Assembly: GCA_028685665.1 (NCBI GenBank)
Contig: JAQUDN010000011.1
Location: 1 to 35,559 of the forward strand
DNA length: 35,559 nucleotides
Origin: Burkholderiaceae bacterium
GTDB taxonomy: Bacteria > Pseudomonadota > Gammaproteobacteria > Burkholderiales > Burkholderiaceae_C
Direction: 5' to 3'
The notes beneath the pieces were generated by a model. It was not told where the DNA came from, searched no databases, and saw nothing but the letters and a program-made list of their open reading frames with translations. Position numbers and translations under genes: made by a program. Below are positions 10,461 through 15,468 of this stretch, piece after piece. Position 1 is the stretch's first letter. Each line of letters begins with the position of its first letter.

Positions 10461-11444
10461 ATGCACAAGCTGGGTGAATTCGACCTGATTGCGCGCTACT
10501 TCACGCGCCCCGTGCGCCGGGCGGCGCTGGGCGTGGGCGACGACTGCGCCCTGCTGGCCCCCGCGCCCGGCATGCAGCTGGCCATCTCCAGCGACATGCT
10601 GGTGGCGGGCCGCCATTTCTTTGCCGATGTGGACCCGGCCCTGCTGGGCCACAAGGCGCTGGCCGTGAACCTGTCCGACCTGGCCGCCTGCGGCGCCCGG
10701 CCTCTGGCCTTCACGCTGGCGCTGGCCCTGCCCAGCGCCGATGCCGCCTGGCTGGAAGGCTTTTCGCGCGGGCTCCTGGCGCTGGCCGATGCGCACGGGT
10801 GCGAGCTGATCGGCGGGGACACCACCCAGGGGCCGCTGAACATCTGCATCACGGTGTTCGGCGAAGTGCCCACGGGGCAGGCCCTGCTGCGCAGCGGCGC
10901 CCGGCCGGGGGACGATCTGTATGTGAGCGGCACGCTGGGCGATGCGCGCCTGGCGCTGGAAGCCCTGCTGGGCCATGTCCAGCTGCCCGCCGGCCTGCTG
11001 GCCTCCGCGCGCCAGCGGCTGGAACAACCCACGCCCCGCGTGGCCCTGGGCCAGGCGCTGCGCGGCATGGCCAGCAGCGCCCTCGACCTCAGCGACGGCC
11101 TGCTGGGCGACCTGGGCCATCTCCTGCGCGCTTCGGGGGTGGGCGCACGGGTCGAACGCTCGATCACTATGCAATTGATAGCTGCCAGCGCATACCCAGA
11201 AAGCCCTCAAGGCCTATTAAGCCCTGAACTCATCGACCAGTGCACCCTGGCCGGCGGCGACGATTACGAACTGGCTTTTACCGCCCCGCCCGCCCTGCGC
11301 AGCGCCGTGGCCGCGGCCGCGCAGGCCAGTGCCACGCCCGTCACGCGCATCGGCGTGATCGAGGCCACGCCCGGGCTGCGGCTGGTGGATGCCCAGGGCC
11401 GGGCGCTGCCAGGCCACTACGCCGCCTTCGACCACTTTGCCTGA
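10461..11444 (+). CDS. thiL: Thiamine-monophosphate kinase
   Basis: Phosphorylates thiamine monophosphate to thiamine pyrophosphate with ATP, the last step of thiamine cofactor synthesis in the cytoplasm. The 327 residues carry the PurM/ThiL signatures: the LGVGDDCALL metal/nucleotide loop, SSDMLVAGRHF, LAVNLSDLAACGARP, and LIGGDTTQG. The C-terminal domain has SALDLSDGLLGDLGH and the later LAGGDDYELAF. Oddity: about residues 237-254 (bases 11170-11222) are encoded by a dispersed-repeat copy read in frame, just before the conserved LAGGDDYE block. The ATG at 10461 is 11 bases after the upstream membrane-protein gene. pgpA and pncC, common thiL neighbours, lie about 3 kb downstream beyond an inserted gene block. 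Confidence 0.95.
   Translation: MHKLGEFDLIARYFTRPVRRAALGVGDDCALLAPAPGMQLAISSDMLVAGRHFFADVDPALLGHKALAVNLSDLAACGARPLAFTLALALPSADAAWLEGFSRGLLALADAHGCELIGGDTTQGPLNICITVFGEVPTGQALLRSGARPGDDLYVSGTLGDARLALEALLGHVQLPAGLLASARQRLEQPTPRVALGQALRGMASSALDLSDGLLGDLGHLLRASGVGARVERSITMQLIAASAYPESPQGLLSPELIDQCTLAGGDDYELAFTAPPALRSAVAAAAQASATPVTRIGVIEATPGLRLVDAQGRALPGHYAAFDHFA
11170..11222 (+). repeat. Dispersed repeat copy 1, inside thiL
   Basis: A box TTGATAGCTGCCAGCGC (11176-11192) is followed after 9 bases by the core AAGCCCTCAAGGCC (11202-11215). Same architecture and spacing as copies at about 14920, 24399 and 26431. The segment stands out as AT-rich within GC-rich thiL and is read in frame, giving residues with S-P-Q-G over the core. 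Confidence 0.7.
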
Positions 11445-11482: not shown

Positions 11483-12649
11483 TTACAAGCGCTCGACCAG
11501 CCAGACCGTGGCGATGACCGCAATCGCCAAAGACCCGCCCGCCACCACGCCCCAGCGGTAGAACGCCGTGCGGCGCAGCCACCAGGCCAGGGGCAGAAAG
11601 ACCAGCACGATGGCGATCTGGCCCAATTCAACCCCCAGGTTGAAGCCGCCCAAGGCCACGGCCAGGTCGCGTGCGGGCAGGCCCAGGTCGAGCAGCACAT
11701 TGGCAAAGCCAAAGCCATGGATCAGGCCGAAGACCAGGGCCAGGCGCCAGCGCGTGAAGGCAAACCAGCCCAGCAGGTTGTTGAGCGCCGCCAGCACCAC
11801 CGACAGGGCAATCACCGGCTCGATGAAACCGGCCGAGGGCTCCAGCCAGCGCAGCACCGACAGGCTGAGCGTGACCGAGTGCGCCACCGTGAAGGCCGTG
11901 ACCACCGACAGCACATTGAGCAGCGTGGGGCGAAAGCGCGGCTGGGCGTCCCAATCGGTGACCTTTTTGCGCGACACCACCAGCGGCGCCAGCACCAGCA
12001 GGCTCAGCAGGAACAGGATGTGGTCGGTGCCAATCCAGATATGCCAGACGCCGTCCACCACATAGCGGCGCAGCACCGCGCCCACCGACTGGACGCCGGC
12101 GGCAATCTGGACTTCGGGCTGGTCGGGGCTGAACAGGGCGCTGCTCTGCGCCTGGGGCAGATCCACGCGCAGCAGCCCCCGGTGCAGGTTGTCCTGGGGG
12201 AAGACCAGGCCATAGCGCAAGGTCAGCGGGGCGGCGCCCGGATCGGCCCCGCCGGGACAGGCCACCGACCATTCGGTGCTGAGGTAGTAGCCGTCGGCAT
12301 GCTGGCTGGCCAGCAGGTCGAGGGGCTGCAGCGTGCAGGCCTGGTCGGCACTGCGCACCTGCAGGCCCTGCTGCATCCAGGCGGTGAGTTCCGCAGCACG
12401 GGCGCTGGTTTCGCCCCAGCTGACCTGGCCATCGCGGTTGCCATCGAGGTCGAAAATCAGGTCCAGGTCGCGCAGATGGAGGTCGGTGCGCAGCACCAGC
12501 GCCCCCGCGCGGGCCGAGAGCGTGAGGTAGCTGTTGCTGCTGGAGTGGGCCTGCGCCCCTGCCGCCCAGGCCCACAGCCCGGCAGCCGCCAAAACCAGCA
12601 GGGCCTGTCGGCAGAAAAAAGGCAGTCGCCAGTGCACGGGGTTGCGCAT
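11483..12649 (-). CDS. HupE/UreJ-like membrane protein with periplasmic EF-hand loop
   Basis: 388 residues. A signal peptide ends near residue 34 (GAQA|HSS). A periplasmic domain of about 150 residues follows, with a 12-residue EF-hand-like loop DGNRDGQVSWGE at residues 69-80 (Asp69, Asn71, Asp73, Glu80). The C-terminal half has the hydrophobic helices and histidine motifs of HupE/UreJ-type proteins: HIWIGTDHILFLL, then a HSVTLSLSVL helix, then LIHGFGFANVL. HupE/UreJ members are thought to move nickel or cobalt, but this long two-part subfamily is uncharacterised and no hydrogenase or urease gene is in the window. The ATG at 12649 was chosen over upstream codons because AGGA lies 5 bases before it. 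It follows the TPR gene by 7 bases in one operon. Confidence 0.75.
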   Translation of the reverse strand: MRNPVHWRLPFFCRQALLVLAAAGLWAWAAGAQAHSSSNSYLTLSARAGALVLRTDLHLRDLDLIFDLDGNRDGQVSWGETSARAAELTAWMQQGLQVRSADQACTLQPLDLLASQHADGYYLSTEWSVACPGGADPGAAPLTLRYGLVFPQDNLHRGLLRVDLPQAQSSALFSPDQPEVQIAAGVQSVGAVLRRYVVDGVWHIWIGTDHILFLLSLLVLAPLVVSRKKVTDWDAQPRFRPTLLNVLSVVTAFTVAHSVTLSLSVLRWLEPSAGFIEPVIALSVVLAALNNLLGWFAFTRWRLALVFGLIHGFGFANVLLDLGLPARDLAVALGGFNLGVELGQIAIVLVFLPLAWWLRRTAFYRWGVVAGGSLAIAVIATVWLVERL

Positions 12650-12656
12650 GGGGTTC

Positions 12657-13907
12657 CTATCGGGCCAAACGGGCCTGGAGTTGCTGGGCCAGGGGCTGGA
12701 GGAGGGCATCGGTGTAGCCGGTCTGGGCCATCCAGGCCAGCACGGGGGCCGCGGCCTGGGGGCGGTCGAGCTTCAGGGCGGCTTGCACCAGGAGCACGGC
12801 GTCGGCCGGCTCGTTCTGCTCTTTCCAGTTGCGCTCGGCCAGCGCGAGTCCGGCGGGCACATCGCGGCCATAGACGATCAGGTAGATCATTTTGGGCCGC
12901 TCGATCATCGACTCCTGGCGCAGCGCCTGGCTCTGCATGCGGCTCTCGAACTGGGCGGCCAGCTTTTCGGTGTCGGGGTCGCCCAGGCCCTGGCTGGCCA
13001 GCAGCGACTGCATCAGCAGGGCATCGGTGGGCTCGCCGCTGACCGCCGCAGAGCGTTTGGCCCGGGCGTACTGGCCCTGCTGGTTCAGCAGGTCGGCCAG
13101 CGACAGCCGCACCAGGTGCGATTGCGGGCGGGCCTTGAGGTGTTGCTCCCAAATGGCGATGGCGCGGTCGTACTGGCCCAGGGTGCGGTAGGCCTCGCCC
13201 TGGTGGAAGCGCAGCCAGTCCTGGGTCAGGCCGGCCTGGAAATCCGGCAGCCGGACCAAACGGTCCCACAGCGCCGTGGCCTGCCGGGCTTGGCCGGTGC
13301 GGTAGAGCAGCGTGGCCCGGCAGGCGTCGGCCTCGTCCTGCCCGAAACGGCGCTGGATCTCCTGGCAGTCTTCGCCCGCGGCCCGCATGTCCGAGAGCAG
13401 CAGGTGCAGGGCAAAGCGCCAGGACCAGAACTCGGACTGCTGGGGATCGAGCGCAATCGCGGCATTGAAATCCCGCAAGCCGGCATCGAAATCATGGAAA
13501 CCCTGGTGCACCAGCCCGCGCACGAAATGGCCTTGCGCGCTGAGCGTGGGGCGGTCCCACCAGGGCTGGAGCGCCGCCTTGGCGCTGCCGTACCAGCGCA
13601 GATCGCCCTCGGTCAGACCCAGCACGAACACCGCCCGGGCGTAGCGCAGCGCGGCATCCAGGTCTTGGGGCTTGCGCCGCCAGTCCTGCTCCAGCGCCCG
13701 CAAAGAGCCCGGCTGGCCGCTTTGGGCATGCACGGCAGAGGGCAAGACGATCTGCCCGGCTGCCGGGGCGAAACGGGGCTGGGCCGACACCCCGCCGGCG
13801 CCGGCCAAGGCCACGCCCCAGCACAGGGCCTGGATGGCGCGGCGCAGGCGCCAAGCCGATACCCCAGCAAAAGGCAAGGGCTTGAAAAATACCAAGGGAG
13901 TGGTCAT
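12657..13907 (-). CDS. Periplasmic tetratricopeptide-repeat protein
   Basis: 416 residues. The N-terminus has a basic stretch and hydrophobic segment ending in GVSAQ, likely a signal peptide with a long n-region. The body is a series of helical TPR-like repeats, for example GHFVRGLVHQGFHDFDAGL followed by AIALDP, and GEAYRTLGQYDRAIAIWEQH followed by a proline-containing turn. No lipobox or enzymatic motif is visible. TPR proteins usually scaffold protein contacts. It is the first gene of a two-gene minus-strand operon whose second gene is the HupE/UreJ-like membrane protein, so the TPR protein may assist it. The divergent neighbour at 13993 encodes a small secreted protein. Exact function unknown. 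Confidence 0.7.
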   Translation of the reverse strand: MTTPLVFFKPLPFAGVSAWRLRRAIQALCWGVALAGAGGVSAQPRFAPAAGQIVLPSAVHAQSGQPGSLRALEQDWRRKPQDLDAALRYARAVFVLGLTEGDLRWYGSAKAALQPWWDRPTLSAQGHFVRGLVHQGFHDFDAGLRDFNAAIALDPQQSEFWSWRFALHLLLSDMRAAGEDCQEIQRRFGQDEADACRATLLYRTGQARQATALWDRLVRLPDFQAGLTQDWLRFHQGEAYRTLGQYDRAIAIWEQHLKARPQSHLVRLSLADLLNQQGQYARAKRSAAVSGEPTDALLMQSLLASQGLGDPDTEKLAAQFESRMQSQALRQESMIERPKMIYLIVYGRDVPAGLALAERNWKEQNEPADAVLLVQAALKLDRPQAAAPVLAWMAQTGYTDALLQPLAQQLQARLAR

Positions 13908-14368: not shown

Positions 14369-14905
14369 ATGAACGATTTCACTGCCGCAGCGCCCCCGAC
14401 CGCCGGGCCGCGCCGACCCACCACCGCCTTCCTGCTCGCGCACCCCGCGCATTTTGTGGCCCTGGGCTTTGGCGCCGGCCTGGCGCGCCTGGCGCCGGGC
14501 ACCGTGGGCACGCTGTGGGCCTGGCTGGCCTACCTGGTGCTGCAGCAATGGCTGGCGCCCCCGCAGATCGGCCTGCTGATCGCCGCCGGCACCCTGGGCG
14601 GCTGGTGGGCCTGCACGGTCACGGCGCGCCACATGGGCGTGGCCGACCCCGGCAGCATCGTGTGGGACGAGGTGGTGGCCTTCTGGCTGGTGCTGTGGCT
14701 GGCCATGCCCATGGGTTTCTGGGGGCAATTGGCGGCGTTTGCGCTGTTCCGCTTTTTTGACGCGGCCAAGCCCGGCCCTGTGGCCTGGGCCGACCAGCTC
14801 TTCAAAGGCTTTGGCTGGCGCGGGGGCTGGGGCATCTTGTTCGACGATTTCGTGGCCGCCTTCTGCACCCTGCTGGTGCTTGCGCTGTGGAGGCACTTCA
14901 CATGA
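14369..14905 (+). CDS. pgpA: Phosphatidylglycerophosphatase A
   Basis: Inner-membrane phosphatase that converts phosphatidylglycerophosphate to phosphatidylglycerol. The 178 residues contain the family motifs: [17 protein letters not shown] near the N-terminus, [25 protein letters not shown], and [13 protein letters not shown], whose Asp/Glu residues coordinate the metal. Three to four hydrophobic segments fit a small membrane protein. The ATG at 14369 is used. The TGA overlaps the next start as ATGA, so pncC is translationally coupled. In related genomes this pair often follows thiL directly; here about 2.9 kb (HupE-like/TPR pair and the small secreted protein gene) separates them. Confidence 0.95.
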
Positions 14906-15468
14906 ACCGGGCGGCCAGCTCAATACTCCTGAAAAATGAGCATGTAGCGCTTGATACACAAGCCCTGGAGGCCGATTTGACCCTGATCTCCAGCCCCCTG
15001 CTGCGCCAGGGCTGGATGCTGGCCACCGCCGAAAGCTGCACCGGCGGCCTGATCGCGGCGGCCTGCACCGACCGGGCTGGCTCCAGCCAGTGGTTCGAAC
15101 GCGGTTTTGTCACCTATTCCAACGCCGCCAAGACCGAGATGCTCGGGGTGCCCGCCGACCTGATCGCCCAGCACGGCGCCGTGAGCGAGCCGGTGGCGCG
15201 CGCCATGGCCGAAGGGGCGCTGGCGCATTCGGCCGCCCAGGTCAGCGTGGCGGTGACCGGCGTGGCCGGCCCCTCGGGCGGCAGCGCCGACAAACCCGTG
15301 GGCACCGTCTGGCTGGCCTGGACGGTGGCGGGCGTGACGCACGGCGAGCGCCAGCACTTTGCCGGGGACCGCGCCGCCGTGCGCACCGCCACCCTGCGCC
15401 ACGCCCTGGCCCGCTTGCAGGCCTTGCTGCACGCGGCTGCGCCGGCCGGCCCGCCCCCGGGGGGCTGA
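14902..15468 (+). CDS. pncC: Nicotinamide-nucleotide amidohydrolase PncC (CinA C-terminal domain type)
   Basis: Deamidates nicotinamide mononucleotide to nicotinic acid mononucleotide, an NAD-recycling step. The 188 residues carry the CinA C-terminal domain: [35 protein letters not shown] (written here as [10 protein letters not shown], then [10 protein letters not shown] and VTYSN), later [11 protein letters not shown] and GTVWLAW. The conserved Ser-Cys-Thr-Gly-Gly active-site loop is intact. The ATG at 14902 overlaps the pgpA stop. Oddity: the first ~27 residues are encoded largely by a dispersed-repeat copy (14920-14982), giving an N-terminal extension before the usual [12 protein letters not shown] start. 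Confidence 0.92.
14920..14982 (+). repeat. Dispersed repeat copy 2, at the 5' end of pncC
   Basis: An AGC box ending GTAGCGC (17-base window 14934-14950) is followed after 9 bases by the core AAGCCCTGGAGGCC (14960-14973) and then GATTTGACCCTG. It is read in frame as part of PncC, in a different reading frame from the thiL copy. Confidence 0.7.

Follow-up and report, generated by a model that had tools for sequence, protein, structure and literature searches.

A dispersed 58-bp palindromic motif on housekeeping codons of Comamonadaceae: a candidate DNA signal maintained in trans

The DNA uptake sequences of Neisseria and the uptake signal sequences of Haemophilus have cores of about 9–12 bp and occur in hundreds of copies on both strands. 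They lie inside and between genes, form palindromic pairs at gene ends and leave an imprint on codons. Intragenic palindromic repeats, in turn, are usually taken for selfish DNA whose insertion gives a protein an additional surface loop. In the parts of the cited papers that bear on the present case, Rickettsia palindromic elements (RPE) are described as 100–150 bp long and located in exposed parts of proteins (PMC3767692), GTAG/CGTC REPs as palindromes of 20–40 bp with a GTAG or CGTC tag at one end (PMC3733652), and the beta-proteobacterial repeat element (BRE) as 75–91 bp long, often tandem and, in Bordetella, with an average GC content of 69% (PMC3110155). For the bacterial family studied here, our literature search found no uptake sequence. 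Neither a search by topic nor one with four words of the motif reported below, most subscription journals lying outside both, found a description of it among the titles and abstract openings listed.

The window, that is, the whole stretch of 35,559 nucleotides that we analysed, contains a thiL gene in which one copy of this motif is embedded in frame. The relevant features are the following:

10461..11444, plus strand: thiL, thiamine-monophosphate kinase of 327 aa (TIGR01379, 297.9 bits against a curated cut-off of 184.15; Pfam AIRS and AIRS_C)
11166..11223, plus strand: copy of the dispersed 58-bp palindromic motif in thiL, residues 236–254 (covariance model R1, 38.0 bits, E 2.7e-9; PWM score 49.1)
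14925..14982, plus strand: weaker second motif copy at the beginning of cinA, on its leader or its initial codons (R1, 22.6 bits, E 3.1e-4; the open reading frame has a CinA Pfam match)

The host gene passes the curated cut-off for ThiL. The embedded segment is AT-rich within a GC-rich gene, and its PWM score compares with a maximum of -3.2 in a reversed-sequence control. With at most one mismatch, the word ATAGCTGCCAGCGC occurs 27 times in the source genome and never when read backwards; another word, GATAGCTGCCAGCGC, has a single exact occurrence in the window. According to R1, the window has a single strong copy, that in thiL, and the third match there is at chance level (E 0.23). The copy is absent among the window repeats listed, which are the best 20 of 43 direct families and the best 25 of 34 inverted pairs.

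The original prediction had placed a repeat-derived segment at 11170–11222, inside ThiL. This part stands: the span lies within the plus-strand ThiL reading frame and translates to QLIAASAYPESPQGLL, with S-P-Q-G included, while the genomic counts of ATAGCTGCCAGCGC and the R1 match confirm its origin from a repeat. The segment was also said to come right before the LAGGDDYE block. The order is confirmed, with the block about 10 residues further on. Likewise, the frame is unbroken as proposed, although neither the predicted span of 53 nt nor the 58 nt of the motif is divisible by 3.

The start codon of cinA in the window is uncertain (14887 or 14977). At another locus, L043, a strong copy (60.7 bits) lies in frame at the cinA start (MELSKIELPALDGQALKADL...). 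It is found about 600 nt after thiL, unlike in the window, where two minus-strand genes occupy 11483–13907, between thiL and a PgpA-like gene at 14369–14905. A similar reading at L063 is cut off by the end of the locus, and the extra copy at L059 does not lie at the start of cinA.

The motif has a consensus of about GCTATnAAATTnATAGCTGCYAGCGCTTnnTnnnCAAGCGCTrGAGGCnnnTTTTG and forms a 58-bp imperfect palindrome in Comamonadaceae genomes. R1 was built from 42 aligned copies from the source and related genomes, with loci fetched through thiL left out; it has 58 positions and an imperfect stem of 14 pairs, and at least two of its training copies are BaiN copies (G000 and G225). In the source genome, it yielded at least 125 matches at at least 121 places (E<=1e-3, overlapping matches on the two strands merged), a lower bound obtained by scoring 150 of 2616 candidates. 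The listed matches have a GC content of 36–60% each. A PWM derived from the same 42 copies was applied to 365 kb of source-genome sequence made up of loci that, apart from the window, were picked for holding copies; 196 windows scored >=0, as against 0 in the reversed control.

We then counted a strict 16-base pattern in 299 genomes of the family, keeping in mind that such counts partly reflect the age of the copies besides their number. The pattern was present in 103 of these genomes, at up to 514 places (G282), and by our count at 30 or more places in 34. The two strands were about equally represented, and the backward control gave at most 6 in any genome. Outside the family, 291 genomes from the same order had no more than 3 each. 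The covariance model agreed that copies were few in the low-copy genomes (G218, 3 matches; G264, 1; G230, 2; G134, 0; G288, 1; G087, 0), and found 147 in G128, at least 150 in G189, 68 in G255 and 9 in G047. Many dispersed copies on both strands are also what one expects of an uptake sequence. The motif is a dispersed palindromic DNA family that we did not find described, and its coding copies, judged by their sequences, are evidence for a probable upkeep at the DNA level.

In ThiL relatives found by protein similarity, the element is present in many but not all, and always in the same codon register. R1 recognised it at thiL of Acidovorax sp. NO-1 (61.7 bits), Rhodoferax sp. BLA1 (55.8), Rhodoferax antarcticus (51.4), Acidovorax sp. 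MR-S7 (51.0), Simplicispira metamorpha (49.9), Acidovorax defluvii (44.2), Comamonas odontotermitis (42.2) and Comamonas testosteroni (30.9). Because several genera carry the element at identical ThiL codons, we reject a recent insertion, and with it the idea that the segment was recently gained. The common register, together with the reversed controls, also disposes of the idea that the match arose by chance or from local AT-richness of the loop; nothing but the short length of the motif speaks for such an explanation, which the reversed controls rule out and to which we assign practically no credit.

For a broader comparison, we assembled 90 ThiL genes for which the genomic copy number was known; of these, 88 could be parsed and 2 were dropped. 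The motif scored (PWM >=10) in 49 of the 88, and the loops of these proteins are 67–75 residues long. All 18 loops of 58–65 residues scored below -20. This agrees with a loop that was gained, if not recently. The same residue positions can nevertheless be present in the absence of the motif, which the original prediction regarded as the outcome that would count against it: 21 of the 39 genes scoring below 10 have loops of at least 66 residues, so that its expectation is contradicted in part. In two of the long loops (L038 and L042), the codons are GC-rich.

In motif-bearing genes, the element retains a codon choice at odds with its surroundings. In 26 ThiL sequences with a model score of at least 30, GC3 of the element codons was 0.36, compared to 0.82 and 0.81 in the flanks, a few rows of the comparison being the same genome entered twice. 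The corresponding value in 39 sequences without a recorded model match, drawn from the same length classes, was 0.61; the model search covered L030–L129 and not L130–L138, and this group therefore includes a few unsearched loci. Across 155 distinct loops, ATA encodes the isoleucine within the motif in 71 of 78 cases, compared to 4.7–4.8% of isoleucine codons elsewhere in the genes, and GCT encodes the next alanine in 77 of 140, compared to 4.4–6.5% elsewhere. These codon counts span all loops, independently of the motif score, and are taken over related sequences. The thiL copy is old, sits at one fixed place of ThiL and is kept with non-preferred AT-rich codons.

The state of the thiL copy follows the number of copies in the rest of the genome. 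Among the 30 ThiL genes from genomes with at least 30 copies, loops of at least 67 residues were found in 29 and scores of at least 10 in 28. Where the genome has at most 2 strict copies (n=48), 31 loops reach 67 residues, with a score of at least 0 in 20 and of at least 10 in 15. For 69 genes with loops of at least 67 residues, motif score and genomic copy number correlate with a rho of 0.73, in related sequences and with a correction made by genus only. Within 18 genera, 34 pairs were concordant and 7 discordant (permutation p 0.0015 in 2000 within-genus shuffles), with loops too short to score set to -60. There are exceptions: G189 has 140 copies yet no motif in thiL, G255 has 57 copies yet a thiL with a short loop and no motif, and genus g96 runs against the trend. 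Long loops that lack the motif, as well as motif-like thiL sequences in low-copy genomes, are as expected of an old element eroding at different speeds.

The dependence on copy number could also arise if copying or conversion kept replacing copies by others of the same genome, so that thiL would come to resemble the genome consensus. We consider this improbable. Read by eye, different genomes have ThiL elements with the same middles, such as CCAGAAAGC or TTCACGGGC, and overwriting purK without an indel (see below) would presumably need homologous flanks. A REP-associated-transposase-like gene (NF047646) does not single out the genomes concerned either: it occurs in 263 of the 299 genomes, low-copy ones included, in 90 of them over the curated cut-off, whereas G095, an element-bearing genome with 58 copies, has no match and G195, also element-bearing, only a weak one. 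We thus rejected RAYT as a discriminating factor, as it occurs in low- and high-copy genomes alike. The NF047646-like gene often scores about 80 bits, is usually single per genome and is unrelated to motif copy number.

To see how the element is accommodated in the protein, we used a structure model of ThiL based on 38 sequences (pLDDT 88.8, pTM 0.88), whose best Foldseek match is a ThiL from the PDB (8yks_B, TMq 0.85). Residues 236–254 are predicted to lie between a strand (228–232) and a helix (255–264). The block 241–250 (pLDDT 64) and residues 21–30 (62) are the two internal blocks of lowest confidence. Three solved ThiL sequences are about 7–8 residues shorter at this position. The simplest reading of the model would be an element tolerated in a loop. 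This loop, longer than the 58–65 residues of the 18 element-free relatives, probably has no new function of its own.

Of the 18 coding copies in the source genome, we followed another 4 (PurL, PurK, MutS and the BaiN-type flavoprotein, BaiN) through orthologues found by protein similarity in 20 genomes hand-picked by copy number; 21 of 21 sequences could be parsed for PurL and BaiN, and 19 of 21 for PurK and MutS. In each of the 55 parsed cases from 14 genomes that have 100 or more copies and represent 10 genera (PurL 14, PurK 14, MutS 13, BaiN 14), the motif is found at the orthologous position with a score of 12.5 or higher. In five genomes with 0–2 copies, 16 of the 18 parsed cases scored below 0, one of them, PurK of G218, only barely (-0.1, which is higher than the maximum of -3.2 in random sequence). 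The motif has been lost jointly at these orthologous places in most of the low-copy genomes examined. G218 and G264, both low-copy, share a genus with the high-copy G128 and G189, respectively, which means that, even inside one genus, several loci can lose the imprint jointly.

Two genomes are less clear-cut. G047, one of the five and with 0 strict copies and 9 model matches, supplied the other two of the 18 cases. It scored 9.9 at PurL and 19.9 at MutS, and its MutS score exceeds that of the weakest case among the high-copy genomes. Its scores at PurL, MutS and ThiL (L351, L392 and L053) are intermediate, as if the motif were decaying or present in a variant form. G255, with 57 copies, scored 0.8 at PurL, 1.7 at PurK and 42.3 at BaiN.

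PurK and MutS deserve particular attention, as here the motif overlies segments of unchanged length. None of the 19 parsed PurK sequences shows a length change, and a solved PurK aligns without gaps across the motif place. MutS is gap-free among the parsed relatives, save for one residue in G134, and a solved MutS is two residues from a gap-free alignment with the motif-bearing protein. Over the motif (codons 15–34), GC3 of purK is 0.27–0.47 in the 14 high-copy genomes and 0.73–0.93 in three low-copy ones; in the five codons that precede it, GC3 in the high-copy genomes is 0.66. Similar residues are spelled in purK and mutS with AT-rich, motif-matching codons in high-copy genomes and with GC-rich codons in most of the low-copy genomes examined. 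Coding presence without indels, another property expected of uptake sequences, is found at purK and mutS; some other hosts have extra length. The interpretation offered with the original prediction is partly supported, but it missed this larger point, namely that the same motif runs over purK and mutS without an indel.

The extra length differs between hosts. MoeA is about 27–29 residues longer at the motif place, and PurL 7 residues longer there than a solved PurL. For other hosts, we compared net length along the profile match, a measure that leaves the position of the gap unspecified. By it, the gain is 33 residues in RlmD, 15 in GlcE, 13 in CobS, about 10 in a propionyl-CoA-carboxylase-like subunit and 7 in an SDR reductase; EarP and BaiN are not longer overall. 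Extra length in several hosts makes a mobile origin likely for some copies, and the gap-free hosts imply that insertion is not the whole story.

Several copies were also noted in particular protein contexts. One, antisense, lies inside the insertion of about 27 residues in MoeA (L244 1403–1460), and another between the helicase core and the C-terminal part of a UvrD-type helicase (L216 976–1033). By eye, others coincide with apparent signal peptides of exported proteins (L223 2210–2267, L195 1501–1558, L184 1501–1558, L220 1482–1539, L266 1541–1598, and L268 1539–1596 and 2552–2609), as in MKF[AIQSIAVSALLWGSGACFA]. The weaker of these overlaps (27–30 bits) may reflect convergence of hydrophobic leaders, and we did not count them as evidence.

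One may ask whether a mobile palindromic element, similar to RPE or REP, simply entered thiL and other genes in an ancestor and has since been tolerated with no present role at the DNA level. The lengthened hosts are in line with this scenario, and so are the 18 short ThiL loops, all of them motif-free, and the crowding of intergenic copies at gene ends, which resembles that of REPs in the relevant sections of PMC3733652. As a general account, it is nevertheless unlikely: purK and mutS hold the motif without an indel where most of the low-copy genomes examined spell similar residues with GC-rich codons, and the rare ATA has been kept in almost all of the ThiL sequences counted for it.

We next looked at where the copies lie, using gene calls from a small codon-based caller trained on 17 genes of the window. 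Of 121 copies in the source genome, 88 are intergenic, 18 intragenic, 10 extend over gene ends and 5 are at contig edges. The median distance of intergenic copies is 15 nt to flanking 3′ ends and 25 nt to 5′ ends. Copies were found in 4 of 23 divergent and 23 of 38 convergent gaps, in loci picked for having copies.

A preference for convergent gaps, a palindrome flanked by A and T tracts and some excess of pairing are what an RNA hairpin selected in transcripts, either a terminator or an mRNA structure, would produce. The excess is found in 100 other copies (stem pairing 0.70, slightly above the 0.672 of shuffled sequences) and in the 42 aligned copies, whose pairing was reached by 8 of 500 shuffles. 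The 17 coding copies, on the other hand, pair at the level of shuffled sequences (0.63 vs 0.634), although their information profile resembles that of the 100 others (rho 0.83; the 4 of 121 copies that are not exactly 58 nt long were left out of the profile). Orientation tells against a transcript as well. Only 5 of the 18 intragenic copies are on the gene strand and 13 are antisense, and in gaps between co-oriented genes 29 copies are sense and 30 antisense. Finally, neither the thiL copy nor copies of 20 other loci matched any Rfam family at E values of up to 1, and thus no known RNA family is recognised there. The pairing of the coding copies at shuffle level points to DNA sequence rather than an RNA hairpin as the constraint, and we rejected RNA structure as the main one; selection on a hairpin has, in our estimation, a very small probability.

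A strand-biased motif of the KOPS or Chi type was rejected as well: the 102 copies listed for G189 show no two-arc strand bias (P 0.28). Their spacing is no more even than random.

A motif of fixed length occupies fixed places, leaves an imprint on codons and is tied, with exceptions, to copy number. The best reading of these observations, and a fairly probable one, is that the motif is maintained at the DNA level in trans, as a candidate uptake-signal-like sequence or protein-binding site. A putative trans-acting factor or process would read the DNA itself, in either orientation, which would fit the absence of excess pairing in coding copies. The motif might be kept by selection or by molecular drive, and most likely it would serve as a DNA-uptake signal or as a binding site for some abundant protein. 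At the 3′ ends of genes, copies may double as terminators. In ThiL, the motif would be tolerated in a lengthened loop. Some findings run counter to upkeep in trans: several hosts are lengthened, as a mobile element would cause, and low copy number is not always accompanied by loss (ThiL, G047), with G189, G255 and g96 discordant.

A more far-reaching proposal is that many Comamonadaceae carry a previously undescribed, trans-maintained 58-bp DNA signal imprinted on the codons of housekeeping genes (thiL, purK, purL and mutS), a candidate uptake-signal-like or chromosome-organising motif of unusual length that sister lineages would retain or lose as a whole system. We put this forward tentatively, with more doubt than conviction. 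What sets the present case apart from the usual view of intragenic repeats is that some copies overlay conserved, indel-free segments that are spelled otherwise in low-copy relatives, even within one genus (G128/G218 and G189/G264). This combination makes the question of repeat upkeep testable by synonymous recoding. It is also a caution that loops derived from an element, such as that of ThiL, can arise as side effects of a DNA signal rather than as innovations of the protein.

Among described systems, the motif shares with RPE, as characterised in the relevant parts of PMC3767692, a palindromic repeat that lies in frame in existing open reading frames and at the same place in orthologues (here ThiL, PurL, PurK, MutS and BaiN). 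It differs from the 100–150 bp of RPE in its length of 58 bp, and some of its coding copies are an imprint at the codon level without insertion (PMC3767692). Like the GTAG/CGTC REPs, in the aspects covered by the same sections of PMC3733652, the copies are short palindromes, mostly intergenic and near gene 3′ ends, with some inside genes, including a UvrD/REP helicase. Unlike these, the consensus carries neither tag, the presence of RAYT, judged by NF047646, does not track copy number, and coding positions are common to several genera (PMC3733652). BRE, going by the portion of PMC3110155 that describes it, is likewise dispersed, has Comamonadaceae among its hosts and sometimes lies within open reading frames; our motif is set apart from that description, rather than by alignment, by its 58 bp and 36–60% GC. 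The ERIC, YPAL and RU elements are, in the pertinent passages of PMC2759123, also small intragenic repeats with translated frames, but they are 103–168 bp long and enterobacterial.

Uptake sequences, in turn, resemble the 58-bp motif in occurring in hundreds of copies, on both strands, within and between genes, as palindromic pairs at gene ends and with an imprint on codons. Compared to their cores of about 9–12 bp, the motif of the Comamonadaceae is 58 bp long.
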